This document shows positions 2,506 to 30,957 of a DNA stretch of 33,331 bases, piece after piece. How positions within the stretch are numbered: the first letter of the stretch is position 1; each line of letters begins with the position of its first letter. The stretch lies in IMG/VR virus record IMGVR_UViG_3300024517_000066, positions 1 to 33,331 of that record. The stretch is one strand, 5' to 3'. The translations under genes were made by a program, and so were the position numbers. Below the pieces are notes generated by a model. That model made no database searches, was not told where the DNA came from, and was given only the letters and a program-made list of their open reading frames with translations. The stretch comes from a virus.

Positions 2506-3108
2506 ATGCTTGCTATTGGTACTGAACCTCTAAAACTAGCTGATGGTACATTAATTAACCCTGATAATGGGGAAGTTATACCTGTACAAGAAGCTGGTAT
2601 GACTGAGGTTCCGAACTACCAAGATATACAAAGAGACTTCACTGATCGTAGAAAACGTATTAGTGATATCCCTGTACCTATTAAAGAGATGAATGCAATT
2701 AGTGTAGTGATTAGCTATACTATCTTCGGACTACCTAATGAAGACATTGCAGAAGTCCTAGGTATCTCTGTAGAGTATATCGAAAACATGAAACTGTCTG
2801 ATGGTTATAAGGAACTTATGGAAGGTTTCATTACTAACATCGCAGAGACAGATGGTGATCACGTAAGAAGTCTATTCTCCCAACAAAGTATTCTAGCTGC
2901 TAGGACTATTACAGGCATGTTGAATAGTGCTAGTCCTCATGTAGCTATGAGTGCTGCTAAAGATGTGTTAGATCGTGCAGGACATAGACCTGCTGATGTA
3001 GTAGAGCACAATCATAAAATGGAAGGTGGACTAGTCATTAGACATGTAAGAAGGTCTGAAGATGAAGAGATCACTATTGATTTAACACCTGATGGAGATT
3101 CAGTCTAA
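2506..3108 (+). CDS. terS: Terminase small subunit (probable)
   Basis: A 200-residue protein likely to recognise phage DNA and start packaging with the large terminase. Residues 66-95 look like a helix-turn-helix (FGLPNEDIAEVLGISVEYI), the usual N-terminal DNA-binding module of small terminases. Residues 143-164 (SPHVAMSAAKDVLDRAGHRP) resemble a segment common in small-terminase-like phage proteins, followed by a short beta/acidic tail. Length fits the family. GGTGTAAG precedes the ATG. Unusually, the large subunit begins about 5 kb downstream, after eight intervening genes. The alternative is a generic DNA-binding virion protein; the helix-turn-helix and the downstream motif favour terminase. 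Confidence 0.72.
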   Translation: MLAIGTEPLKLADGTLINPDNGEVIPVQEAGMTEVPNYQDIQRDFTDRRKRISDIPVPIKEMNAISVVISYTIFGLPNEDIAEVLGISVEYIENMKLSDGYKELMEGFITNIAETDGDHVRSLFSQQSILAARTITGMLNSASPHVAMSAAKDVLDRAGHRPADVVEHNHKMEGGLVIRHVRRSEDEEITIDLTPDGDSV

Positions 3109-4598: not shown

Positions 4599-5060
4599 AT
4601 GGTTACTATTGATCACTACGACCAATTCGTAGAGTTAATGGGTGATGTTGCTGCTGGTTATACAGGACTAGATAGTGATACACAAGTAATAATGCTCATG
4701 AACTCTTCTCATGTGCGTACTACTTCTAATACTCTCCGTACTAATGTTAATGCAAATGAACTAGCTACTGGTAGTGGATATACTATTAGTGATGGTGCTG
4801 GAGCTGGTGAAGTCTTAACTAGTACGACATCTAGTCAGGCTAGTGCTGGTGTTTGGATGTGGGATGCTGCTGATGCTAGTTGGACTGCTAGCGGAGGTAG
4901 TATTGGTCCGGCTACTGATGCAGTTATCTTTAATGATTCTATTACAACTCCATTGAATGCTTTGATGATTGATATTGACTTTGAAGCTTCTGAAACTGCT
5001 GGTGCTGGTACTGACTTCATTATAGCCTTTCATGCTAATGGTATTGCTAGGATAACGTAA
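4599..5060 (+). CDS. Beta-rich virion-type protein
   Basis: A 153-residue protein rich in Thr, Ser, Ala and Gly. Its pattern (NELATGSGYTISDGAGAG, then ASWTASGGSIGPATDAVIF, then NALMIDIDFEASETAG) matches small beta-sandwich proteins I have seen in many phage structural operons, usually annotated hypothetical or virion. GGAG lies nine bases upstream of the ATG, and the stop overlaps the next start as TAATG. Attachment to the capsid or tail is inferred from composition and from neighbouring beta-rich genes. Confidence 0.6.
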   Translation: MVTIDHYDQFVELMGDVAAGYTGLDSDTQVIMLMNSSHVRTTSNTLRTNVNANELATGSGYTISDGAGAGEVLTSTTSSQASAGVWMWDAADASWTASGGSIGPATDAVIFNDSITTPLNALMIDIDFEASETAGAGTDFIIAFHANGIARIT

Positions 5061-5515
5061 TGGCTACTCCGACACATAGAGTTCGTCCATCTCTTAATGA
5101 GCGGTTAGGATCTGTTCAACGAGATGTAGTTGAAATTAAAGGGATTATGTCTAATGCCTTGAGTGCTTTGGCTGCTGGACCTGTATCTACTAATCAAGTA
5201 ATTGGATTAGCAGTAAGTTGTAGTAGGGTTAATAATGCTCTAGGCAATGCATCTAATCATGCAGGACTAGTTCCTTACGCAAAAGACATCTACAATGATC
5301 AGACATTAAACTATAATGTAGAGATAGCTGCAACTGTGTCGGCATTAACTGATGTTATTACAAGTATTAATGCAGCATTACCAAAGGATGTAGAAGGTAA
5401 TATACTAGGAAGATTACTTGATGCTAGTGGTGCTCAAACCTTTTCAGTACTTACTACATTAGAGACTGCATCTATCCAGACTAATCTAACTACTGCTATA
5501 GCGACTATCGACTAA
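5060..5515 (+). CDS. Hypothetical virion-associated protein (151 aa)
   Basis: A 151-residue, Ala/Asn/Leu-rich protein with predicted helices (SLNERLGSVQRDVVEIKGIM near the N-terminus and TVSALTDVITSINAAL near residue 100). The C-terminus resembles the alanine/threonine-rich ends of phage structural proteins. It is coupled on both sides by TAATG overlaps; AGGA lies seven bases before its start. No specific function was recognised. Its place among surface-type proteins suggests a virion part. Confidence 0.6.
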   Translation: MATPTHRVRPSLNERLGSVQRDVVEIKGIMSNALSALAAGPVSTNQVIGLAVSCSRVNNALGNASNHAGLVPYAKDIYNDQTLNYNVEIAATVSALTDVITSINAALPKDVEGNILGRLLDASGAQTFSVLTTLETASIQTNLTTAIATID

Positions 5516-6186
5516 TGGCTACAACTGGTTTCACTACTGCTGGAACTGGAACAAGTGTAACTGGTCCTGCTACACAGGAGAGTAGTCCTAATTGGTCAAC
5601 TCCTGGTAATGTAACTGCTGATGATGTAGCAGTATCTTCTACTGATATGAGAGATGATCCAGGAACTAATAGTGAATATCTTAAAGGTACTAACTTTGGT
5701 TTCGCGTTACCAGCAGGTGCAACTATTGATGGAATTGAGGCAAGGTTCCAATGTAATAGTTCTGATGCTCCGGGTAGTGGCAATAGATATGTTGCTGAAC
5801 TAACTGCTAGAATATTTAATGAAGCTGGTGTAGTTGAAGGAGATAATAAAAGTGATACAGCAGATTGGCCTGCTGCTGTAACTACTAAAACATATGGAGG
5901 TGCTGCTGATTTATGGTCAGGTACATTTTCAGATACTGATGTAGAAGATATAGACTTTGGTTTTGGAGTGGTAGTAATATTTCCATCTGATGCTGATAGA
6001 GGACAAGGTTCTGTTGATGTTATAGAAATGAATATACATTATACAGAATCAAGTACTACTATTACACTTGCTGGTGCAGATAGTTTAGCTGTATCTCATG
6101 GAGTGCCTACTATTACTGCTAGAGCGGTAGAGGCTAAAGGTTTTAGATTTAGAAACCTTGATGGCGGCAAAGGACCAAGGTTCTAA
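5515..6186 (+). CDS. Virion surface/adhesin-like beta protein
   Basis: A 223-residue, beta-rich protein. Residues about 25-175 resemble a jelly-roll-like domain found in phage tail or fibre proteins (SPNWSTPGNVTADDV, YLKGTNFGFALPAGATIDGI, WPAAVTTKTYGGAADLW, DVIEMNIHYTE). After it comes a TTITLAG linker and, from D189, one 22-residue unit (DSLAVSHGVPT...) of the repeat that fills the C-terminus of the next gene's product. The shared linker and unit suggest the two proteins co-assemble or share ancestry. Its own end (RFRNLDGGKGPRF) is basic. It starts and ends with TAATG overlaps. Confidence 0.65.
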   Translation: MATTGFTTAGTGTSVTGPATQESSPNWSTPGNVTADDVAVSSTDMRDDPGTNSEYLKGTNFGFALPAGATIDGIEARFQCNSSDAPGSGNRYVAELTARIFNEAGVVEGDNKSDTADWPAAVTTKTYGGAADLWSGTFSDTDVEDIDFGFGVVVIFPSDADRGQGSVDVIEMNIHYTESSTTITLAGADSLAVSHGVPTITARAVEAKGFRFRNLDGGKGPRF

Positions 6187-8204
6187 TGGCTATTACTTAT
6201 GTAGGAGCAGGAACCGCAGATAGTAGAAACACTTCTGGTGATGTGTTTCCTACACCACATGCAAGTACTTTAATTGGTGACTTCATGCTGTTGTCGCAGC
6301 ATCGCAACGACGAACTTGGTACGTTCGAAGCAGTTACAGGTTTCACTGAAATTCATCAACAAAATCCAACTACTGGACAAGATAGAAGTACTGGTCTTTG
6401 GTATCGCATAGCAACTGCGGATGCACCGGGGGCAGTAACTTGTGGGCATACTGATGCTGGCACAGAACAGTATGCAGCACAAATTGAAACATGGCGTGGG
6501 GTAGATGGTACTACGCCATTTGATGTTACATTCGCTGCGGGTAGTCATTTAGTAAACCGAGTTAATAAAGCATCTCCAAATGTAGATGCATTTCAAAGTA
6601 TTACTACTGTTACAGATGGTGCATTTGTTGTTGCTGTTGAGATGGTTACACATGATGATATCACAAGTAATGCTGATCCATCAGGATATACAAATGGATT
6701 TCGATTAGTAGGTACTAGTCATCAGCACAGGCAAATACAATCTTGGCATAGAGAGATTGCAACTGCTGGTGCAGAAACTCCGGGTGCTCCGGCTTATACA
6801 TCTAGTCTTCTTACCGCAGAAAGTTCTCAATATACATTAGCATTAAAACCTGCTGGTGGAGCTGATGTTACTATTACTCTTGCAGGATCTACATCTCTTA
6901 CTCAAACTGACCAAGTACCGATACATGCAGGACAGAATGGAGCAAGTTTCTCTACTGCATTGAATACAGCATTAGAAGCAGATGTATCTAGTGGTAATGT
7001 AAACTTTCGTGTAATCCTACTATATCAAAATGATGGTAGTCCACTTACTCCGACTATGAAGGTACGGTACAGTAAGAACTCTGGAGCTTATGCAGACATT
7101 ACTGGGGTAAGTAATAATGTACAGTTATTTAATGATAGTAATTTAACTAATGGAGCAGATTCAGTACAGTTAATTGGATCAGGCACTTTTGAAGCAAATA
7201 ACAATGGTATCTTAGATACTTCAGCTACTTTCACTCCTGCTGCTCTAGCTACAGCAGAAGAAGGTGAATGTGAGATATCTGGGACATTAATTAGTGCTGA
7301 CTTAGCTGATACTGATACTATACATTTGTTACTTCATTATAGTGATAACACACCAGTAGGTCCCCAAACACAAGTCGCTCTTATTAATATAACTAAAACT
7401 GGAGGGACTACTACAGTTACTTTAGCCGGTGAAGATGGTCTTACTGTTTCCCATAATTCTCCTACAGTTGGGAGTGGAGCTTCTAGTTCTCCGACTGCTG
7501 ATGCTCTTACCGTATCGGATAATGTGCCTACTGCTAGTACTGGAGCAAGTAGTAATCCAACGAATGATTCCTTGGTTGTTGCAGATAACATTCCAACAGT
7601 TGCTAGCGGGAAGTCTGTTTCTAGTCCTAGTGATTCAGCTACAGAAGTAGATAATGCTCCTGAAGTTTTTACTGGTGCATCTATAGCAGGACTAGTTGAT
7701 GCATTAACTGAGACAGATAATACTCCTACAGCTTCTACAGGAGTACTAACTAATCAGAATAGCGATTCATTAACTTTAGTAGATAACGCCCCTGAAGTAA
7801 AGTTTAATGCTCGTGTATATCCTGATGAAGATACATTAATACAGACAGATAACATTCCAGAAGTTGTTACAGGAGCATCTGTTGATGTAGGAGTAGATAA
7901 CCTTGTATTATCTCATAATGCTCCAACAGTTGGTAGTGGTGCTCGTGTAGATGTACCTTTACTAGAACTAACTCAAACAGATAATGAGCCTCGTAGACTT
8001 GTAGATGTTGTAATTAATGTTCCATGCTTAGAGATGAGTATCTCACATCAAGATCCTATTATAAGTACAGGTGTTGTTGTTAGTATTCCCAGCCTATCTA
8101 TGGGATTAATTACTTATGCTCCAATATCAGTAGGAAATAATTTAGGTGCTAGAGAGCCTGATGTTCGTTTAGGAATGGGACTAAAAAGAGGGATGGGATT
8201 ATAA
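6186..8204 (+). CDS. Large repeat-containing virion/receptor-binding protein
   Basis: A 672-residue protein. Residues 1 to about 222 look like a beta-sandwich surface domain (WYRIATADAPGAVTCGH, AAQIETWRGVDGTTPFDV). A VTITLAG linker near 228 leads to a second beta domain (about 240-405), and a further linker (VTLAGED) leads to ten complete 22-residue repeats (417-636) plus a partial one. The repeat pattern is DxLxxxDNxPxVxTGA followed by six variable residues. The C-terminus is short and basic. Such repeats may form a beta-rich shaft or stalk, and the protein is probably an adhesin or decoration. AAGG precedes the start, and both ends are TAATG overlaps, the second with the large terminase. 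Confidence 0.7.
   Translation: MAITYVGAGTADSRNTSGDVFPTPHASTLIGDFMLLSQHRNDELGTFEAVTGFTEIHQQNPTTGQDRSTGLWYRIATADAPGAVTCGHTDAGTEQYAAQIETWRGVDGTTPFDVTFAAGSHLVNRVNKASPNVDAFQSITTVTDGAFVVAVEMVTHDDITSNADPSGYTNGFRLVGTSHQHRQIQSWHREIATAGAETPGAPAYTSSLLTAESSQYTLALKPAGGADVTITLAGSTSLTQTDQVPIHAGQNGASFSTALNTALEADVSSGNVNFRVILLYQNDGSPLTPTMKVRYSKNSGAYADITGVSNNVQLFNDSNLTNGADSVQLIGSGTFEANNNGILDTSATFTPAALATAEEGECEISGTLISADLADTDTIHLLLHYSDNTPVGPQTQVALINITKTGGTTTVTLAGEDGLTVSHNSPTVGSGASSSPTADALTVSDNVPTASTGASSNPTNDSLVVADNIPTVASGKSVSSPSDSATEVDNAPEVFTGASIAGLVDALTETDNTPTASTGVLTNQNSDSLTLVDNAPEVKFNARVYPDEDTLIQTDNIPEVVTGASVDVGVDNLVLSHNAPTVGSGARVDVPLLELTQTDNEPRRLVDVVINVPCLEMSISHQDPIISTGVVVSIPSLSMGLITYAPISVGNNLGAREPDVRLGMGLKRGMGL
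7434..8093 (+). repeat. Ten 66-bp (22-aa) protein repeats
   Basis: Ten in-frame units of exactly 22 codons with no length variation, each opening with D(S/A/T/N)L or, in the last two, LEL/LEM. An eleventh, partial unit (LSMGLITYAPISVGN) follows. Amino-acid similarity is clear (DN.P at positions 7-10, TGA near 14-16), but the DNA has diverged, so this is an old repeat under protein-level constraint rather than a recent duplication. Confidence 0.9.
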
Positions 8205-9772
8205 TGGCTGTATTTAATCTCATAGATGATAGTATTCAGGATAGATTCTTGCAATGTGTAGCTAAGATACAAATACTTGCAGGAGGATTTGCAAATGGTA
8301 AGACTTCTGTTGCATGTGTTAGAGCATGTGAGTTGGCCCGTGATTATCCTGGGAGTAATGGTCTTATTGCTCGTAGTACATATCCTAAACTAAATGATAC
8401 TATTCGAAAGGAGTTTCTTAAATGGTGTCCTCCAGATTGGATCAAATCATTTCCGAAGAGTCAGAACGCATCGAATACATGCACCATGACGAATGGTACA
8501 ACTATAAATTTTCGCTATATCGCACAACAGGGAAAAAACAATCAAGAGTCAACTACCTCCAATCTATTATCAGCAACATACGATTGGATCATAGTAGATC
8601 AGATGGAAGATCCAGAGATAGTTCACAAAGACTTCCTAGATCTGTTAGGTCGTCTTCGTGGTATGACGAGATATCAGGGTGATGACCCTAGAATGCCTAA
8701 GACTGGTCCTCGCTTCTTTATGATGACAGTCAATCCTACACGTAATTGGTTTTATAAGAAGTTAGTTAAACCAGTACATGACTTCATTAAGTATGGTCGT
8801 ATATCTAATGACTTACTATGTGTAACTGATGACGATGGTGCGATTGTAATAGATGAAGAAGGTAAGCCTGTTCCACTCATAGAGATCTTTGAAGGATCTA
8901 CTTATGAGAATAAAGATAACTTAGAAGCTGATTATATACGTACACTTGAATCTACATATAAAGGACAACAGAAAGATAGATACCTATATGGTAAGTGGGC
9001 TGCTTATGAAGGACTAGTACATCCATCATTCGATGATGGAATTCATATGATACCTCATGAACAGATATTAAGTTACTATAACAAGTGTAGACATGCGGGA
9101 ACACTAACTATCTTAGAGGGATATGATTATGGACTTGCTGTTCCTTATTGCTACTTATTTGGTTTCGTTGATCCTCATGGAAATGTGCTCATCCTCGACG
9201 GTGATTACAGATCTGAATCGTCTGTTGATCAAGACTTACCAGATAATCCAAGTCATGCTAGTTCGATTCTATCTATTCGAGAAGAGTATGATTCAGAAGG
9301 TAGTATCATCTTTTGTGACCCTGCCATCTTTCGAAGAGGAGCAGGAGGCAAAAAGGTTGTTGGACAAACTGTTGCAGGAATGCTCAACGAAAAAGGAATT
9401 AAAACGCAACGAGGTAATAACCACATTGCCAATGGGATCGTTAAAGTAAATCAGTATCTACATATACAAGGCTTCCATCGTAATCCCATAACTAGGAATG
9501 ATGGTGCTCCTTATATAATGTTCAGCGATAAACTAGAGTTCGTTGAAGATGAATTCAATGGATACTATTGGAGGAAAGATTCTTCAGGAGATACTGAAGA
9601 TATACCAGTAGATAAGAATGATCATGCAATGAACACAATCAAATATCTGTTGTCTCGCAGACCTGAATTGGCTAAGATACTAGAGTTTAAAAAGCCTAAG
9701 CAGGTTGGTTGGTATAAGTGGGGTGAAAGGGATATTCAAGCCACTACTAGAAAGTTAGCAAGACATGGCTGA
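8204..9772 (+). CDS. terL: Terminase large subunit
   Basis: The ATP-driven DNA-packaging motor and headful or end-cutting nuclease, docking on the portal. The protein has 522 residues, normal for the family. The ATPase Walker A is GGFANGKT (27-34) and Walker B is WIIVDQMED (128-136). The C-terminal RNase H-like nuclease shows its three expected acidic residues: D308 in GYDYG, D372 in FCDPAIF and D473 in KNDHAMNTIKY. It starts at a TAATG overlap with the repeat protein gene and overlaps the next gene by eight bases. Its separation from the small subunit by eight genes is unusual. Confidence 0.95.
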   Translation: MAVFNLIDDSIQDRFLQCVAKIQILAGGFANGKTSVACVRACELARDYPGSNGLIARSTYPKLNDTIRKEFLKWCPPDWIKSFPKSQNASNTCTMTNGTTINFRYIAQQGKNNQESTTSNLLSATYDWIIVDQMEDPEIVHKDFLDLLGRLRGMTRYQGDDPRMPKTGPRFFMMTVNPTRNWFYKKLVKPVHDFIKYGRISNDLLCVTDDDGAIVIDEEGKPVPLIEIFEGSTYENKDNLEADYIRTLESTYKGQQKDRYLYGKWAAYEGLVHPSFDDGIHMIPHEQILSYYNKCRHAGTLTILEGYDYGLAVPYCYLFGFVDPHGNVLILDGDYRSESSVDQDLPDNPSHASSILSIREEYDSEGSIIFCDPAIFRRGAGGKKVVGQTVAGMLNEKGIKTQRGNNHIANGIVKVNQYLHIQGFHRNPITRNDGAPYIMFSDKLEFVEDEFNGYYWRKDSSGDTEDIPVDKNDHAMNTIKYLLSRRPELAKILEFKKPKQVGWYKWGERDIQATTRKLARHG

Positions 9773-11939: not shown

Positions 11940-14114
11940 ATGGCTGAAGAAGACAACATTCCTACAGAAGTATCAGACAATATTGATAGGTCTTTAGGCG
12001 AAGAACCAAGAAAGAAGAAGAAGGTTCAACCTACTTATCAAGTATTAGGTGATTCTAAGATACCTGTGTCTAGTGTTACAGGTGATACTTGGAAGTCTCG
12101 TTTTCGTATGGGTAAGAAAGCTACTGAGAATGTATCTAAAGCATGGGATGAAGCCATGCGGTATTATGATAATGATCAGACAAGGCATAGAGCAGATACA
12201 GATGAAGATGTATCAGGTAACTTAGTAGGTAATCAGAGACTTAATGATAATATCACTCAGACTGAGAATATCATTTACTCAAATACTACTACAATGGTTC
12301 CGGCACTGTATGCTCAAAATCCTAGAGTAGAGTTTACTACTAGAGATGAGAGTAAAAAGAAGCTTGCTACAGCAACTGAAAGACTTATTAATGACTTACT
12401 TAATCGTAAGAGTAAGCCAGGAGTAGCAATTAAGAATAAGATTAAGCGTAGTGTCGTTACTACTTTGCTTACTAATAGGTCTTGGCTAGTTGTTAATTGG
12501 ATTCAAAAAGAAGAGAGTAGTGAGCAAGCTCTATTAGAGTTACAAAATCTTGCTCAACAACTTGTTAAGGCTAAGAAACCTAAAGATATTCTTGAGATAG
12601 AAGGTAAGATTATGGCATTGGAGGATACAATCTCTGCATTGAATCCTGCTGGTCCAGATGTAAAGTTTAAACTGCCTAGTGAGGTTATTACTGATCCTGC
12701 ATCTATTGAACTACCCGGACATGATGCTCAATGGATGATGATTATAGATTACTTACCTACTTCATTCATTAAAGCTAAGTATGCTACTAAGAAGGGAGCA
12801 GACTTTAAGTCTCTATTCAAACCTAGTCATATAATGAAGTTAGGTGAGAAGGATGGAGAAGCTCATACAGGACAAGAAGTAGACTTCAGTCTCTTTGACG
12901 AGAATGATTTAGCGAAAGACTTTGGATTTGAAGATGACAACTCATTTGAAAAAGCTCAAATGACTAAGGTTGTCTTTGTCTGGGATAAAGTAACTCGTCG
13001 TGTACTTATGTTTAATCATAAAGATTGGACATGGCCTATTTGGGTATGGGACGATCCACTTAGATTAGATACTTTCTTTCCAGCCTTTCCACTTACATTC
13101 TTTGAAGGCCCATCAGGTCCGAATACTAAGGGTGAAGTGTCTTACTACTTAGATCAAGCAGATGCTATTAATGAAATAACAGATGAGAAGCGTAGAGCTA
13201 GACGTTGGGCTAGACGTAACATCTTCTTTGATAGTAATAGAATCAATGCAGATGATGCAGCAGCAGTACTTAATGGAGATGATGGTACAGCTAAAGGTGT
13301 TGATGTACCAGAAGGTATGAAGATTACTGATCTTATCTTTTCTATGCCTACTCCTTCTATGCAATTTGCTGAGCTATTTGATAAGGAAGAAGAGTATAAA
13401 GCTGTAGATCGTATCTCTAGTGTTAGTGAAGTACTAAGAGGTGCTCAATTTAAAACGAATACAACTAACCGTGCTGTCGATGCTAATGTATCTTCATCTA
13501 ATATGAGACTAGATGAGAAGTCAGATGCTATAGAAGATCATGTTGGTTGTGTTGGTTGGGCAATAGCACAGTTATGTCTTATGAATTGGGACAAGGAAAC
13601 TGTTGCTGGTATTATTGGACAAGAAGCTGCGGTAGATTGGGTTAACTTATCTCCAGAAGAGATTCGGTCTTCATTTACTCCTAGAGTTGTTTCTGGTACA
13701 TCTAAGAAGCCTACTTCTAAAGCTAAGAAAGAAGAAGCCTTAGAACTTGGACAGGTACTAGGACAGTTTGTACAAGCTTCTCCACAAGTAGTCATTGTTA
13801 TGCTTGAAGTACTGAAAGAAGCATTTGATGAAGTCACAATTACTGAAGAACAATGGCAGAGTATCATTGACAGTCTGTCACAACCAGCAGCTCCCGGAGG
13901 TTCTCCTCAAGATGCTGCATCAGAACCAGGACCAAATAGTCCAGGAGTTACAGAAGGTGGGGATGAGCAAGCAGCCGCACAAGCAGCAGAACTAAAGGCT
14001 ACATTAGACACACTAACACCTGAACAGAAGCAACAAGTAGCGGCTCTGATTCAAGAAGGTGTACAGCCAATTCAGGCTGTTCAGCAAGTAACAGCTACTC
14101 AAACACAACAGTAG
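11940..14114 (+). CDS. Portal protein
   Basis: A 724-residue portal (head-tail connector), expected to form a dodecameric ring at one capsid vertex through which DNA enters and leaves. Recognition rests on a pattern typical of podovirus-type portals: WDEAMRYYDNDQ (about 69-80), then ENIIYSNTTTMVPALYAQNP (about 109-128), a long middle region with RARRWARRNIFFD (about 419) and VSEVLRGAQFKTNTTNRAVD (about 497), and a Gln/Ala-rich C-terminus. Size fits the larger podoviral portals. AGGA lies eight bases upstream. The scaffold and capsid genes follow directly, as expected for a head module. Confidence 0.88.
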   Translation: MAEEDNIPTEVSDNIDRSLGEEPRKKKKVQPTYQVLGDSKIPVSSVTGDTWKSRFRMGKKATENVSKAWDEAMRYYDNDQTRHRADTDEDVSGNLVGNQRLNDNITQTENIIYSNTTTMVPALYAQNPRVEFTTRDESKKKLATATERLINDLLNRKSKPGVAIKNKIKRSVVTTLLTNRSWLVVNWIQKEESSEQALLELQNLAQQLVKAKKPKDILEIEGKIMALEDTISALNPAGPDVKFKLPSEVITDPASIELPGHDAQWMMIIDYLPTSFIKAKYATKKGADFKSLFKPSHIMKLGEKDGEAHTGQEVDFSLFDENDLAKDFGFEDDNSFEKAQMTKVVFVWDKVTRRVLMFNHKDWTWPIWVWDDPLRLDTFFPAFPLTFFEGPSGPNTKGEVSYYLDQADAINEITDEKRRARRWARRNIFFDSNRINADDAAAVLNGDDGTAKGVDVPEGMKITDLIFSMPTPSMQFAELFDKEEEYKAVDRISSVSEVLRGAQFKTNTTNRAVDANVSSSNMRLDEKSDAIEDHVGCVGWAIAQLCLMNWDKETVAGIIGQEAAVDWVNLSPEEIRSSFTPRVVSGTSKKPTSKAKKEEALELGQVLGQFVQASPQVVIVMLEVLKEAFDEVTITEEQWQSIIDSLSQPAAPGGSPQDAASEPGPNSPGVTEGGDEQAAAQAAELKATLDTLTPEQKQQVAALIQEGVQPIQAVQQVTATQTQQ

Positions 14115-15145: not shown

Positions 15146-16105
15146 ATGGCAAGTTCACCTATTGCCACGGTTCTCAACTCTACACTTACTAAGTCGCGTA
15201 AGAAGCTGATAATGGCTTCTATTAAGTCTAATGCATTGCAAGCATGGGCTTTTGCAACTAACCGTGTAGAGTTTGAAGATGGTGGTCACGAAATTACAAA
15301 CCCACTTACTCTAGGACGTAATCCAAATATTTCGTCTTATGAGTACTTCGATGAACAACAGATTACTCAGACCAATGAATTCGATACAGTAAGTTACAAC
15401 TGGTCGCGTGTTGGTGGTACTGTTGTTATTTCCGATCAAGAAGAAGACGAAAACCAAGGTACAGCACAGATCTTTAAGTTGATGAAAGCTAAGATGGAAG
15501 TCTTGGAAGAATCAATTAAAGAGAAGTTCTCTAGCTACCTCTATGCAGTTTCGTCTGGTACTGATCCCCAAGGTCTTGGTGATCTAATTCCAGATGATCC
15601 TACTACTGGTACGCTTGGTGGTATTAACCGTGCTTCTGAGTCCCAATGGAGATCGTCTGCTTACGACTTCGATGGTAATATTGATTCAACTAACATTGAA
15701 GAAGTATTTGATGATGTCTTACTCGACCTTACTATGAAGTCGAATAAGCCTGATATCATTCTTACAGGTCGTAATCTTTATCGTACTTATCGCACAGCAG
15801 TACGTGATAAGGTTGTCATTAACTTGTCTGAATCTAATTCAGGTAAGAAGATGATGGATCTAGGGTTTGCTGGTGTTAAGCATCAGAATATTCCCATGTT
15901 GTATGATGAAGATTGTCCGGTTAATAAGGCATACTTCATTAACAGCCAATTCCTTCGCCTCCACATTCTTCGTCATGTTAATATGAAAGTCAAAGAGCTT
16001 GTTGCTCCTTGGACTATCGATGCTCATGGTCGTAGGATCGTTTGGCAGGGTCAGTGGTGCTTATGGAAGGCTTTCCGTACTCACGCTGTTGTGATTGATG
16101 AATAG
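15146..16105 (+). CDS. Major capsid protein (HK97 fold)
   Basis: A 319-residue protein forming the icosahedral shell. Features matching short podovirus-type HK97-fold capsid proteins are an N-terminal helical arm, a beta region (YNWSRVGGTVVISDQEE), a long spine-like helix (AQIFKLMKAKMEVLEESIKE), and C-terminal strands including PDIILTGRNLYRTYR and NMKVKELVAPWTIDAHGRRI. It follows the scaffold gene after a 28-base gap, and GGAG lies eight bases before its ATG, a stronger ribosome site than most genes here, consistent with high expression. Confidence 0.88.
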   Translation: MASSPIATVLNSTLTKSRKKLIMASIKSNALQAWAFATNRVEFEDGGHEITNPLTLGRNPNISSYEYFDEQQITQTNEFDTVSYNWSRVGGTVVISDQEEDENQGTAQIFKLMKAKMEVLEESIKEKFSSYLYAVSSGTDPQGLGDLIPDDPTTGTLGGINRASESQWRSSAYDFDGNIDSTNIEEVFDDVLLDLTMKSNKPDIILTGRNLYRTYRTAVRDKVVINLSESNSGKKMMDLGFAGVKHQNIPMLYDEDCPVNKAYFINSQFLRLHILRHVNMKVKELVAPWTIDAHGRRIVWQGQWCLWKAFRTHAVVIDE

Positions 16106-17264: not shown

Positions 17265-17915
17265 ATGACAGTATTTCGTGAGTTAATAGACAGAACAATA
17301 CTGCGGATGTCTCAGGTTCCTGGGGCAGCTACACAAACTTATGCAGAAGATAGAGTAGCAGAGATGCTACAACATAAGTTTGATATACTCTTTGATGAGT
17401 ATTGGTGGCCGAAGTATAATCTATGGTCTACTTATACACTAGATGGCTCTACTGGAGTAGTTACTACTGATCTCACAGAGATCATTAAAAGGTTTGAAGA
17501 TATTCGATCAGTATTCATAGGTAATACTAGTCGTAGAGTACTTATCCTTGGTCCAGAACAAAATCCTAATATTATAGATGGAACAGATCCTAGAGTATAC
17601 GAAGCAAATGCAGATGCCGCTAGGGTTATAACTATATGGCCTAAGACTGCTACAGGTACTTTAGATATAAATTATCAAACTAAACCAGATACATTCTCTT
17701 CAGAAGATGAAGTAGATATGGATGATCAGTTAATGATCTGTGGTGCTGCATGGGACTACCTTGAAGATGATGGTACTAATCCCGGTGCAACTCAGAAGTT
17801 CCAAAACTTCTTTGAGGACAGATTAGCTCAATTGACAAGTAAGTTAAATAGTAGGCCAATACCACTAGATCACTTTGCTTCTCGATCAGATACCTTTACA
17901 CTCACAAGGATATAG
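17265..17915 (+). CDS. Head-tail adaptor/tail tubular protein A-like
   Basis: A 216-residue protein that probably forms the ring between portal and tail nozzle. The N-terminal helix (FRELIDRTILRMSQV), the WW-containing helix (KFDILFDEYWWPKYN), and the C-terminal helical segment (DDQLMICGAAWDYLEDDGTN, then FQNFFEDRLAQLTSKLN) follow the pattern of podoviral gp11-like adaptors, and the length matches the family. AGGA lies just upstream of the ATG. Position after the capsid genes and before a nozzle-like gene agrees with the T7 order. Confidence 0.78.
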   Translation: MTVFRELIDRTILRMSQVPGAATQTYAEDRVAEMLQHKFDILFDEYWWPKYNLWSTYTLDGSTGVVTTDLTEIIKRFEDIRSVFIGNTSRRVLILGPEQNPNIIDGTDPRVYEANADAARVITIWPKTATGTLDINYQTKPDTFSSEDEVDMDDQLMICGAAWDYLEDDGTNPGATQKFQNFFEDRLAQLTSKLNSRPIPLDHFASRSDTFTLTRI

Positions 17916-25763: not shown

Positions 25764-26689
25764 TGCCTGAATATAATCCCTTTGCTCCTCTAGAACAACT
25801 AGGTACACAGAATGCAGCGGATAGAGCTGCTAATCAAGCTCGTAGTAATCAGCTACAAGACTTTGGTTTGAAGGATCTTCTCTCACAGATTGCTACTAAG
25901 AATGCAACTGAAGCAGCAACAGTTAAGTTTGGTCGTGATCAGGCAACTGCTAGAGCATTGGCAGCATCTGATCACAAGAAGGCTACAGATGTACAAGCTT
26001 TAGATAATCGAGGTAAGCTTGCTGTATCAACACAACAAAGTAATAGCAAGTTGCAAGAGGTACTTGCTGGACTTGGTATCGCGGCTGATCCAACAGGACA
26101 AGGTGGACAAGCAACGAACCAGCCTCATGTACAAAATGCATTAGCACAGATACTTCAGAGTAATCTTGGAGAAACTAATGCTAATGCTGCTGCAAAACGT
26201 AAGGCTGCTGGACAAGGGCCAATTATTCCTCCAAGTGGTTTACCACAATCAGGTCCAGGATCATTACCACCTCTATTTTCTGTACCTTCTACTAGTGCAG
26301 ATGTTAAGCCTGCTATTACTAGTGTGAATACTGTTGTTAATGGTAATGAAAGTACTGATGGATCAACATTAACTACCTTCCCTCAAGTACCAAATAGAGA
26401 TGGTACAAATCTTGTTCCAGCGAAAAGCGAAGTTACTAAGTCACGAAAGAGAACAAAACAAGATAAAGTAAAGACAAATAATTTCGCTGCTCAACCAACT
26501 TCGAATGCACAAGATCAGTCAGTTGCTAACTCTGCATTAGCTGCTCACTCTGCTAGGCTTGGTAGACGGATACAGCCTACTGATACAGTTGGGACAATTA
26601 CAACTCTTCCTGATGGTTCTAGGTTTGTACCTGTATGGATAACACAACCTAATGGATCACTTAAACCTACAATATTACAAGTACCTTAA
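25763..26689 (+). CDS. Internal virion protein candidate (308 aa)
   Basis: A 308-residue protein. The first 100 residues are helical and Ala/Gln/Asn-rich (AADRAANQARSNQLQDFGL, then HKKATDVQALDNRGKLAV). The middle is Pro/Ser/Thr-rich and probably disordered, and a small beta-like end carries VGTITTLPDGSRFVPVWI. No family was recognised. Coupled TAATG junctions place it in the same translational chain as the 1,422-residue protein, suggesting co-assembly inside the virion. Confidence 0.56.
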   Translation: MPEYNPFAPLEQLGTQNAADRAANQARSNQLQDFGLKDLLSQIATKNATEAATVKFGRDQATARALAASDHKKATDVQALDNRGKLAVSTQQSNSKLQEVLAGLGIAADPTGQGGQATNQPHVQNALAQILQSNLGETNANAAAKRKAAGQGPIIPPSGLPQSGPGSLPPLFSVPSTSADVKPAITSVNTVVNGNESTDGSTLTTFPQVPNRDGTNLVPAKSEVTKSRKRTKQDKVKTNNFAAQPTSNAQDQSVANSALAAHSARLGRRIQPTDTVGTITTLPDGSRFVPVWITQPNGSLKPTILQVP

Positions 26690-29600
26690 TGCCTAATCCA
26701 TTTGAAAAGGGATCAATTAAAGAAGCACTAGCTAATGATAGTACAGGTAAGCTAGCATTAGGACTTGCTACAATAATATTTGGTCCAGATAAGACTACTA
26801 AAGAAAATGTAGAATCACTAAAGCAACTAGCTCTAGGGGCAAGTGATCAAGTAACAAGCTTGCCTGCTATGGGTGGTGCAGCATTTGAAGGGGTAAAGTC
26901 TGTACTACCTCCATTGCATAGTGCTGATCAAGCCTTTAGTGATCCAAACTCCTTTGTAGATAATCTACTTGCTAACCCTGCTGTACAACTGACAGGTAAA
27001 TTACGTAAAGGTGCTAATGAATTACTAGGTACTGGAGAGGCACGGACCCCAGGAGACTCCTTCCTTCGTAATGGTATTGGAGCAAATACATTACCTCTAC
27101 CTGTTAACAAATTTACTGGCCCATTACTTAATAGTCCTCATATAGCAGCAAAACTTGCTCGCATTGCTACACCAGTTACTAAAGCTAATGATCCTGCTCG
27201 CATGATGACACAGCAAATCTTTGGTGGGTCAATAGATGCAATTGCTAATGAAGTAACTAATAATCCTGCTGCTATTAGTAATACTCCTGCTGGTAAGATC
27301 ATTGGTGACATTGATCTAGATAAAGACTTTAGCTTAATTCCATCTGCTTCAGCACAGCAAGTACCACAAGCTATTGATGATGTAGAAGTAATTGGATTAG
27401 ATGGTGCTCCCGTCATTCCTCAGTCAGTGTTTCCACCTAATACCGGAATACCTGATCTACCTTTTGCTGATCCTGAAGTTGTACCACTAATTCCACAACA
27501 AGAGTTAAATGATGCTATCACTAACTTAGAGGATCAGACACGTAGAGCAGAGCAAAACCAGACAGTAAAGGATGTAGGTAAGACTCTTATTGGTATTGGT
27601 ATTGGTGCAGGAGTCCTTCGATATAGGAAGAGACAACTCATACAACATCAGAAGAATGCTGGTGTTACTGGAGCTGGACCTATACAAGATACTCCTGCTG
27701 ATGCACACATACAAGCTATACTTAAAGACAATGGTATCATTGATCATGTAGTTACCGGTGCTCCAACTGCCTCTAGAAATGCAGCTAACAAGGGATTAAA
27801 TAGAGTTGATGAGTTAATAGGTGATGGAGCTATTGTACTCAAAAGACACTTAAAAGAACTTGGTTATCCAGATGATGAGATTGATAGTCTCATGGGTAGT
27901 AGCAAGATGAATCATCTTGGGATAACAGGACACTTCTTTAGGACAGGAGAATTAGGACAAGATACTGGCATTAAGTTGCCTGCTCTATTAGATATGGATA
28001 ATGATTTACTTGTATTAAGTAGGACAGGTAAAGACAAGTTATACAATGAAACTATGGTTGCTATGGCTGAGCTATCTAATCGTAAGAGATCAGGTGGTGT
28101 GCGAGTAGGACTATGGGGAAGGGACCAGAAACCTGTAGGTACTGAGCAACTAATTAAAAAGATTGAGAAAGGTTTAGGTGATCCAGCAGTCAATGATCTC
28201 ATTCGTAAAACAAATGAGTGGACTGATGGAATGCTTGAGTACTTACATAAGAGAAAGTTACTTACTCCTGCACAAGCAGAAGAGTTTAAAGAGTCCCATA
28301 CTGTTGCAGGTATGAGGATGTACTTGCCGATGACTGAACAGAAGGGCATGGAAACTCTTACAAAGAAGATGGCTAATATAGTTGGGCCAGATTCTACTGA
28401 GGGACAAGAGCTTATAGGTCTATCTAATATGTATGCACGTTCCAGTGAGTTTGCTGGAGGTGTAAAACATCCTATGGCTCCTATGAAAGCTATGAAGCTA
28501 TATGCTATTAGAATGATTGAAGCTTCTAATAGAAACCTTCTTGCATATGAAACATTAACTAGACTATCAAATCTTAAGACTACTTCTGGACCAACAGGTG
28601 TAAGTCTCGAACGTGTACAGAGGCAAGGAACACTTAGAGTTCCTGCAAAGTCTGCGGAAGATGCTCTTAAAGAATCAGATCAAGATGTAAGATATATTGG
28701 TAAGTCTGTTGTTGATGAAGATGGCAGTTCATCTTTTCAGTTTGGTGTTAATGGAGTAGTAGATGATAAAGAGATAAGAGAAATGTTTACTCTTAACTCT
28801 GCGGGTAAGCCATTAAATATTGATCTTGCTGATAATGCTATGAAGAGTAGTAATGTTATCAGCGTAATGCATCAAGGAGAGATTCATAGATTCTTAGTTA
28901 ATGATCACAGCCTACGTGCACAATTGTTTGCTCCAACTCCTAGACTTCAAAAGTTTTATAACATATTGAGTATGCCTAAAGCTATTGGACAATCACTTAC
29001 TACTGGTAAGTTTAGTCCCTTTCAGCCTACTGCTGTAGTATATAATATTCTTAATGCTTCTAATGTATTAGGGCTTGGTAGTTTTACAGGACTTACTAAG
29101 AATAGTATGTTTGGTATTATGACACTACTTAAGCAGGGTGCAGCAGAAGAAGTAGGTACATATACTACACAGAAGATTGCAGCAGATTCAGGTATATGGA
29201 AATATCTATCTCCTGATATGAAACATGCAATACAGCAGAAGTTAACTGATGCTGCCGGAGACTCTATGATTAAGAGTATTCGCAGAGAGCAAGGTAAGTT
29301 AGCAACTGGTTTAGATATGTCAGGTAAAGTTAAGTTTCAAACAACTGGTCAGATCATGCGAGAGTTTGCTCCAGACTTTAATAAATTTTTTGGTGTAGAT
29401 CAAATGCATCTAGCATATAGAATGCTTGGAGTATTTAACAATGCTATGCATCAAGGTACTGCTTTTGGCTTAGCTCAGAAGATGATCAATGATCTTGGAC
29501 ATGCTCCGTCACCTAAAGAGATTAGAAAGATCTCACAACAAGCTGGTGATATAGTAGGGGATGTTAACTCACAAGGTACTGGTAGGTTAATGGATTTAGT

Positions 29601-30957
29601 CCATGCTACAGTACCATACTCTGAACCTACTATTGCTGCATTCCGTGTACTAGGTAGAGCCGCTGCACGTAATCCTAAGAAGTTTGCATTAGCCTATGCA
29701 ACATATATAGGTGTGCCTACTATGACCGAACAGGCATACTTAGAGACATTGGATGAAGCTGGCATAACTTATACAGATCCTGAGACTGGTGAAGTTCTTT
29801 CTTATAAGAAATGGTTTTGGGATAACCTATCTGATCACAGGAAGATAGCTTCTTTCTATGTACCTATTCCAGGTAAGCATCCTAGAGATGGGCTGTTATT
29901 TCCTACATCTCCTGAGTGGGGACCAGGTAGGGGATTCTTATTAGACTCTGCAAATGCTATGCTTAACTTGTCAGGTGATCAAGATGAAGTAGATATAGCT
30001 AATCCACATAGAGTACATATGAGAGCGGGACTTGCTCGGATGTTTGGTATTCCTATGCCCACTCCTCTAGCAATTGGACTAGGTACAGTAGGATTAGAAG
30101 GCAGTCTTGGACCTAACTTTCGTTTCTCTAATAATCCTAGTGATCCAGAAGGTGAAACAACTTTCTTTAATATTCGTGGTCCGGGTAAGGGACAGACTGT
30201 TACACGGTATGGTGATACAAGAAATGTAAATGATGCAGTAGATCAAGAGTTATCTATCTTACTACGTTCATTATTCATGGGTGGAGAACGTTTGATTGCA
30301 GGATTTGCTGATGGATTTAAAGCAGGAGCAGAACCAAGAATTGAAGGCACTAGTACAGTTGAAGGACTTAAGTTTGGTCTTCAAGGATTGGGCCATGAGT
30401 TTGTAAAGAAAGCTCCATTCCCATTGAATCCTCTTTGGCCTAATCAAACTGTTCCACGTAGTAAGACTAGTAGAGATGTACATGCAGCTACATCTAATAT
30501 GCAACTAGTTGATAAAGACTTCAAGGTAAGACAGACTGATGGACAAGCTTCAACAGATGGTAGACCCTTTTCTGCGGAAGTTCCTGTTACACAAGATCCA
30601 ATCTATAATCTTGCTCAACCACATATTAATTTTGCATTACAATCTATTCGACCAATGCAAGAAGAGATTGCAGTACTTGAGAAGAATATACGTATCATTG
30701 GTAACTCATTCAAGGATATCAATGGAGAGAGGCTTACACATACAGAGCGTACAGCAAAGATAGATAATTATACGATGGCAATCAATGCTAAGATGATTGA
30801 GATTAAGTTAGAAATTAGTAGACATCAAGAAGCTGCAAGAGAAGAGATGGCAGGTCATGGACTTGAATGGACAGGTAACTTCTCTACACTTAAGCCTAGA
30901 GCGTCGGCTCCGAGAGAATCGATAACACCTTCTGAGTTACTCCCGCCCCCTCAATAG
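26689..30957 (+). CDS. Giant internal/ejection protein, polyvalent-domain-like
   Basis: A 1,422-residue protein, the largest in the window and last in the late operon. Residues about 293-310 form a glycine-rich hydrophobic segment (GKTLIGIGIGAGVL) followed by basic residues. The central and C-terminal parts (about 380-1100) are helical; around 905-1010 the phrases MLGVFNNAMHQGTAFGLAQK and DIVGDVNSQGTGRLMDLVHA recall the large polyvalent-protein-associated domains (LPD38-like) of phage giant proteins. That match is from memory. I saw no transglycosylase or protease signature. Such proteins are carried in the capsid and ejected with DNA. Its last 62 bases overlap the end of the opposing ATPase gene. 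Confidence 0.68.
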   Translation: MPNPFEKGSIKEALANDSTGKLALGLATIIFGPDKTTKENVESLKQLALGASDQVTSLPAMGGAAFEGVKSVLPPLHSADQAFSDPNSFVDNLLANPAVQLTGKLRKGANELLGTGEARTPGDSFLRNGIGANTLPLPVNKFTGPLLNSPHIAAKLARIATPVTKANDPARMMTQQIFGGSIDAIANEVTNNPAAISNTPAGKIIGDIDLDKDFSLIPSASAQQVPQAIDDVEVIGLDGAPVIPQSVFPPNTGIPDLPFADPEVVPLIPQQELNDAITNLEDQTRRAEQNQTVKDVGKTLIGIGIGAGVLRYRKRQLIQHQKNAGVTGAGPIQDTPADAHIQAILKDNGIIDHVVTGAPTASRNAANKGLNRVDELIGDGAIVLKRHLKELGYPDDEIDSLMGSSKMNHLGITGHFFRTGELGQDTGIKLPALLDMDNDLLVLSRTGKDKLYNETMVAMAELSNRKRSGGVRVGLWGRDQKPVGTEQLIKKIEKGLGDPAVNDLIRKTNEWTDGMLEYLHKRKLLTPAQAEEFKESHTVAGMRMYLPMTEQKGMETLTKKMANIVGPDSTEGQELIGLSNMYARSSEFAGGVKHPMAPMKAMKLYAIRMIEASNRNLLAYETLTRLSNLKTTSGPTGVSLERVQRQGTLRVPAKSAEDALKESDQDVRYIGKSVVDEDGSSSFQFGVNGVVDDKEIREMFTLNSAGKPLNIDLADNAMKSSNVISVMHQGEIHRFLVNDHSLRAQLFAPTPRLQKFYNILSMPKAIGQSLTTGKFSPFQPTAVVYNILNASNVLGLGSFTGLTKNSMFGIMTLLKQGAAEEVGTYTTQKIAADSGIWKYLSPDMKHAIQQKLTDAAGDSMIKSIRREQGKLATGLDMSGKVKFQTTGQIMREFAPDFNKFFGVDQMHLAYRMLGVFNNAMHQGTAFGLAQKMINDLGHAPSPKEIRKISQQAGDIVGDVNSQGTGRLMDLVHATVPYSEPTIAAFRVLGRAAARNPKKFALAYATYIGVPTMTEQAYLETLDEAGITYTDPETGEVLSYKKWFWDNLSDHRKIASFYVPIPGKHPRDGLLFPTSPEWGPGRGFLLDSANAMLNLSGDQDEVDIANPHRVHMRAGLARMFGIPMPTPLAIGLGTVGLEGSLGPNFRFSNNPSDPEGETTFFNIRGPGKGQTVTRYGDTRNVNDAVDQELSILLRSLFMGGERLIAGFADGFKAGAEPRIEGTSTVEGLKFGLQGLGHEFVKKAPFPLNPLWPNQTVPRSKTSRDVHAATSNMQLVDKDFKVRQTDGQASTDGRPFSAEVPVTQDPIYNLAQPHINFALQSIRPMQEEIAVLEKNIRIIGNSFKDINGERLTHTERTAKIDNYTMAINAKMIEIKLEISRHQEAAREEMAGHGLEWTGNFSTLKPRASAPRESITPSELLPPPQ

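Follow-up and report, generated by a model that had tools for sequence, protein, structure and literature searches.

A phage protein with an exact 22-residue repeat array: modular architecture, array exchange and a candidate role at the virion surface

We analysed the 33,331-base virus record IMGVR_UViG_3300024517_000066, referred to as the window throughout, and compared it with other sequence loci, which are designated by L-numbers (L003-L170). The gene of interest encodes a 672-aa protein, beginning MAITYVGAG, that carries a tandem array of 22-residue units, and it shares the plus strand with genes for both terminase subunits and for portal, major capsid and adaptor proteins (Table 1). L003 carries the gene without a single difference over 2016 bases, and L004 carries it with 6 differences over 1980. 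The initial annotation had regarded its product as a virion protein; the late structural gene context agrees with this designation, and it is from this context, rather than from the protein sequence, that we infer a virion location; oligomeric state and fold are likewise inferred. Judging from the portal and adaptor families, the source phage is probably short-tailed. Elsewhere in the window, positions 1-1520 hold no plus-strand ORF of at least 80 aa, include an (ACTAAT)4 tandem repeat at 1339-1363 and are a possible terminal or control region, and a 1422-aa ORF at 26689-30957 has no PHROG match at E≤0.01.

Table 1. Features of the window and of the 672-aa repeat protein.
Feature	Coordinates	Strand	Description
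Terminase small subunit	2506-3108	+	phrog_2538, E 2.1e-10
phrog_644 family protein	4599-5060	+	E 7.2e-12; ~1.1 kb upstream of the repeat gene
223-aa neighbour ORF	5515-6186	+	one unit, TITLAGADSLAVSHGVPTI, at residues 182-200, then a basic tail
672-aa protein	6186-8204	+	N-terminal beta-sandwich, single unit, central domain, 22-residue array, basic tail
N-terminal beta-sandwich domain	6186-6851	+	residues 1-222; RGVDxTTP motif; block pLDDT mostly 70-93
Single unit-like motif	6870-6923	+	TITLAGSTSLTQTDQVPI; residues 229-246, ahead of the central domain
Central domain	6936-7400	+	residues 251-405; homologues in L005 and L105, weaker homology to L022
Repeat array	7434-8138	+	residues 417-651; ten complete 22-residue units and a degenerate eleventh
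Basic C-terminal tail	8139-8201	+	ends VRLGMGLKRGMGL
Terminase large subunit	8204-9772	+	Terminase_6N and Terminase_3 above cut-off, phrog_979; directly downstream of the repeat gene
Portal protein	11940-14114	+	phrog_156, E 1.1e-13
Major capsid protein	15146-16105	+	phrog_9953, E 2.9e-47
SU10-type adaptor protein	17265-17915	+	PF24175, E 2.6e-08, above its cut-off

The units of the array follow the consensus DxLxxx[DH]NxPxVxxG and contain no insertions or deletions, the ten [DH][NQ]xP anchors being spaced by exactly 22 residues. Upon comparison of the array with itself (242 residues tested), identity amounted to 0.359 at an offset of 22 and 0.364 at an offset of 44, while at the remaining offsets between 15 and 49 it stayed at or below 0.124. 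In 10,000 residue shuffles, the highest identity over offsets of 10 to 59 was 0.18, so that 0.359 was never attained. Across the ten units, the proline and the D/H preceding the asparagine are present in 10/10, the asparagine itself in 9/10, and the leucine, the glycine and the first aspartate in 8/10 each; the incomplete eleventh unit includes LITYAPISVG. Mean pairwise identity between units is 34% for protein and 48% for DNA (DNA range 26-64%), and Tandem Repeats Finder, run at score 30, reported no array in this region. The initial annotation had described ten complete units of 22 residues plus a partial one, and this repeat is real and lies at the coordinates that it gave. Its further remark, that an invariant period goes together with low DNA identity between units, is likewise correct, because Tandem Repeats Finder does not pick up the array at the DNA level.

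The array is one module of several in the 672-aa protein, a feature absent from the initial annotation, as are the lone unit-like motifs ahead of the central domain and at the end of the 223-aa ORF. Ahead of the central domain, L005 carries a counterpart of the single unit-like motif at the same place (SVTVDLGTYTQGGLDPTL). The central domain itself matches L005 (E 7e-10; 41% across 74 residues) and, by pairwise BLASTP, L022 (E 3e-5); an HMM of this domain built without L022 did not recover L022 at E≤0.01, and phrog_6149 matches the domain weakly (E 0.0048). Short basic C-terminal tails recur in L062, L007 and the 223-aa neighbour. The end of this neighbour resembles residues 345-432 of the repeat protein (36% identity, E 1.1e-6), and its residues 1-185, like the neighbouring 151-aa ORF, had no phmmer relative among the ORFs of 135 sources.

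Repeat-built fibres and surface proteins are a known kind of phage protein, and the initial annotation had recognized no described fibre or stalk motif in the units. Scans of Pfam, PHROGs and NCBIfam with the protein, the array alone and its relatives bear this out: matches to the array were weak or unrelated only, leaving it unassigned in these three libraries. A PDB lectin match (E 0.003), gapped and spread across 97 residues, was judged compositional. Among the titles and abstract openings covered by a literature search, mostly of openly accessible papers, none describes a 22-residue DNxP repeat. Phage fibres are usually trimers, and a trimeric shaft, built as a triple beta-spiral or in some related manner, is one candidate structure for the units. 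Each unit has two hydrophobic strand-like stretches with a conserved proline turn between them, as in the layout of adenovirus-type triple beta-spirals, and an obligate trimer would be expected to predict poorly as a monomer. However, such shafts have a repeat of about 15 residues as opposed to 22 in the window, and no chain of this kind appeared in profile or single-sequence PDB searches at E≤10; we consider a trimeric shaft rather unlikely.

Structure prediction gave distinct results for the domains and the array. In a full-length AlphaFold monomer model, based on nine aligned sequences of which only four covered the array, the N-terminal domain formed a good beta-rich model, while the rest of the protein was modelled poorly, the array at a pLDDT of 30-50. 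Modelled on its own from 19 rows, which were segments cut in register with AGxY arrays (see below) of putative homology, the array showed short strands about every 22 residues at a pLDDT of 53.7 and a pTM of 0.45. Foldseek searches with this array-only model returned no significant PDB match (best E 0.85) and a best BFVD match at E 0.016; bactofilins, pectate lyases and other solenoids were among the weak hits. The full model had 73 BFVD matches at E≤0.001, and the best 50 of the 73 include six Mycobacterium phage minor tail proteins. In VIA-align comparisons with the PDB, this model gave Z values no higher than 4.7, in the N-terminal domain, and we therefore claim no fold family. The beta-solenoid, trimeric shaft and surface binding units that the initial annotation had envisaged thus remain candidate structures: a ~22-residue strand period is drawn by the array-only model, but array confidence is low in both monomer models (pLDDT 30-54) and the PDB comparison gave no significant match.

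These models bear on two further explanations. The units could constitute a single-chain beta-solenoid with one 22-residue coil each, as drawn by the array-only model with its short strands and weak solenoid matches; considering the poor scores of this model, the lack of a significant PDB match and the fact that its input segments were cut in register with AGxY arrays, this arrangement seems improbable. Conversely, the array could serve as a decoy coat on the surface or as a low-complexity linker, flexible and for the most part disordered, its period originating from unit duplication rather than from a regular fold. The low pLDDT of the array in both models, the missing PDB match and the many unit positions occupied by T, S, G, D, N or P would suit such a linker. 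But the full-length model rested on only four array rows and, with 4 to 19 array sequences used, a low pLDDT is no proof of disorder. Moreover, at 34% identity the ten units have tolerated no insertion or deletion and have kept their P, N, L and G positions, which drift in a disordered linker would not be expected to preserve, and two other phages (L022 and L062) have conserved the repeat. A disordered linker is, accordingly, an explanation that we hold to be unlikely.

The two other phages emerged from viral contigs screened for a [DHN]NxP pattern with three units at 66-base spacing. Of the 56 matching stretches, read in frame, we attribute the DNxP repeat only to L022, L062 and two relatives, L004 and L019, of the same phage type as the window. 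L022 carries seven anchors, all 22 apart (four DNxP, two DFAP and one DTAR), before its contig ends, and L062 carries seven with spacings of 22 (four times), 25 and 22; homologues with other unit numbers, which the initial annotation had named as support, thus exist. In all three phages the RGVDxTTP N-terminal domain precedes the array, and a phrog_644 gene is also present in L022 and L062, as it is in L005. Their portal context consists of a phrog_113 portal in L022 and a phrog_332 head-tail adaptor in L062, and the portal families therefore differ from the phrog_156 of the window. Further downstream, L062 encodes another protein, whose N-terminus is that of tail-protein and tail-fibre families, so that the repeat protein is not the sole fibre candidate of this phage. 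A tighter two-unit DNxP pattern found only L019, L004 and L062 and had no match in genome contigs; as it missed L022, such patterns can miss relatives.

Many of the 56 stretches were discarded, either because they resembled tape-measure helices carrying DNLP at a 22-residue spacing or because stop codons interrupted the frame. The DNLP anchors recurring with this period in tape-measure-like helical regions (for example L018, L036 and L040) we take for an unrelated coincidence. A different 22-residue repeat of exact period, PFRxDxLSNNVPSESDLETDSI, occurs in four large viral contigs (L046, L047, L053 and L066), where identity between units is very high; it was caught by the same pattern and is not the DNxP repeat. 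The four contigs are also scored by a DNxP profile (E 1.2e-8 to 6e-4), which is therefore not specific.

Relatives of the N-terminal domain point to an exchange of arrays on a common chassis. The N-terminal domain of L005 and L006 is 83% identical to that of the window and is accompanied by a homologous central domain, and yet in L005 it is followed by an array of the GxYxxxGLDP type, with eleven G(L/F)D anchors spaced by 22 residues except for one spacing of 24. L006 has the same array as far as its contig reaches. Between L005 and L006, 11 of 1,908 bases differ, and 9 of the 11 lie inside the array, the distribution that exchange within the array would produce. For the L005 array, Pfam DUF3642 was considered and rejected: the array alone scored 24.1 bits against a cut-off of 22.7, but L005 was not placed in this family because the whole protein, at 19.3 bits, falls below the cut-off. 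Immediately before the L005 array gene lies a gene for a 344-aa glycine-rich protein (L005:3967-4998) with no Pfam or PHROG match.

The RGVDxTTP domain is shared by many phages and is elsewhere continued in different ways. Arrays with a period of 20 residues follow the domain in L075, L076 and Microcystis phage Mae-JY04 (WWT39678), the latter thus resembling the window in domain and short-period array though with no DNxP array seen, and a short 20-residue stretch occurs in L078. AGxY arrays of 22 residues follow it in L143 and L170, a glycine-rich domain in L081, and little else in L074 and L077. Gene 44 of Ruegeria phage vB_RpoS-V16 has a related domain as well but, at ~236 codons, is barely longer than the domain itself. 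Both the N-terminal domains and the C-terminal tails differ from array to array. The relative in L074 (L074:3399-4199) starts with an apparent signal peptide, MSSTSRLLLVAALLPLSASA, as read by eye, which is unusual for a phage structural protein and would be in line with a product that is secreted or placed on the cell surface during infection instead of a virion part. Against such a role, the window protein starts without a signal peptide and its gene directly precedes that of the large terminase subunit, and we regard a secreted product as highly improbable.

The array type found in L005 belongs to a much larger class. In profile comparison, its GLDP array groups with the AGxY class (E 2.4e-8 with L007; 0 of 60 controls). 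These AGxYxLTG proteins, represented by UOF81327 of podovirus ctVRi840 (MW202742) and gp72 of EBPR siphovirus 2 (JF412297), are annotated only as hypothetical protein, and neither their repeat nor the DNxP repeat has a name in Pfam, PHROGs or NCBIfam. They share with the window the 22-residue period and a nearby phrog_644 gene, and contain 3 to 24 anchors per ORF; L005 has such an array on the window's own N-terminal and central chassis. They differ in their consensus, AGxYxLTGxxAxL as compared to DxLxxxDNxPxV, and most of them lack the RGVDxTTP domain, which was present in only 2 of 99 array ORFs among the matches listed (L143 and L170). The G-x-Y-x-x-x-G core is absent from the window units, where D-x-L-x-x-x-D/H occupies those positions.

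A G-x-Y-x-x-x-G pattern with three units at 66-base spacing matched at least 120 stretches in viral contigs. Among the matches listed, 99 of 120 loci had at least three exactly spaced AGxY units, 632 in total, although one of the 99 (L119) looks like a repeat of a different type. Of the 444 spacings of up to 30 residues in 96 distinct ORFs among these matches, 334 were exactly 22 with the seed triples excluded, in ORFs that had been selected for three 22-residue spacings. The pattern also matched at least 118 stretches in genome contigs, of which 15 passed a regular expression and about nine were real arrays by eye. When 50,697 phage records were searched by tblastn with AGxY-type arrays, at limited sensitivity and with the low-complexity filter on, only five matched, namely EBPR siphovirus 2 and four Manatee Spring viruses. 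Among the tails listed, the AGxY array ORFs (L082-L152) often end in a recurring (I/V)ELRSFTERRR(M/I/F), in W-rich tails (for example L134 and L152) or in RxYTVPAE-like repeats (L092); one such recurring tail may be an anchor to the particle.

The phrog_644 family, a separate protein without the repeat, is a linked neighbour in the window and in most of these loci. With an HMM built from four phrog_644 proteins, we detected the gene in 72 of the 99 AGxY loci among the matches listed, on the same strand in 72/72 and upstream in 62/72, at a median distance of 764 bases; of the 27 loci lacking it, 11 have at most 133 bases upstream. As a background, unmatched for gene neighbourhood, 2 of 52 unrelated scan loci contained the gene, and those two share sequence. 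The 21 loci that failed the strict spacing test include seven carriers of phrog_644, all of which read as AGxY arrays, and therefore do not provide a clean negative. In 64 of 85 sources, phrog_644 has a long ORF (at least 250 aa) on its upstream side, and eight of eight longer ORFs scanned at this position matched portal or head-tail adaptor families, the choice of long ORFs favouring portals. Unlike in these eight loci, where the portal comes before phrog_644, the portal lies downstream of the array gene in the window and L062. In Pseudanabaena phage Pam1, the phrog_644 homologue is located between genes annotated as needle head and needle, and in EBPR siphovirus 2 it immediately follows a feature whose annotation notes similarity to tail protein, the array gene being the fourth after the homologue.

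The DNxP and AGxY repeats may be analogous and not homologous, given that profile searches brought out no homology between them and that hhalign of DNxP against L005 yields E 0.018 and a probability of 2.5%, a level also attained by 3 of 60 periodic controls. A DNxP profile reached a best E of 0.17 against AGxY arrays, DNxP arrays were missing from the 141 hits of a GxxP-array profile at E≤10, and hhalign against L007 produced no signal. Rotating the register gave a common best register of 22 in six of six comparisons with L005 and AGxY sets (z 2.4-3.6) and, for L007, whose anchor had been placed one residue off, the corresponding register was best in one of three; these registers are suggestive only, as the anchors were author-chosen. 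Suggestive of homology are thus the equal period, the exchange at one site of a shared chassis and the common best register.

What we observe is a modular architecture with a fixed period, variation in unit number, exchange of arrays and a structural-gene neighbourhood. The interpretation that we favour, at an even balance of probability, casts the product of the ORF as an accessory protein on the virion surface of an uncultured and probably short-tailed phage, with a folded domain sitting on an extendable and exchangeable beta-repeat rod. Its most likely site is a head, neck or tail fibre-like decoration. Each unit would contribute two or three short beta strands with turns at DNxP and at the G-A/S end, and successive units would stack to form a rod, with the number of units determining its length. 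Such a rod would space the folded N-terminal domain away from the particle, and arrays would be swapped and resized as modules. Counting against this interpretation are the low confidence of the array models, the rarity of the N-terminal domain among AGxY array ORFs, the period of 20 in several relatives, the single spacing of 25 in L062 and the portal position downstream of the array gene in the window and L062.

On a broader reading, which we put forward tentatively, the locus may be part of a modular surface-fibre system near portal and terminase genes, comprising the phrog_644 protein and exchangeable beta-repeat cassettes of 22 (sometimes 20) residues with varying N-terminal domains and one common rod, the DNxP array being one cassette type. 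One period would then be kept because all cassettes build the same undescribed rod. The AGxYxLTG type is far commoner than the DNxP repeat in environmental viral contigs. If one kind of rod underlies these arrays, solving its structure once would account for proteins in many uncultured phages, with unit number as a testable control of fibre length.
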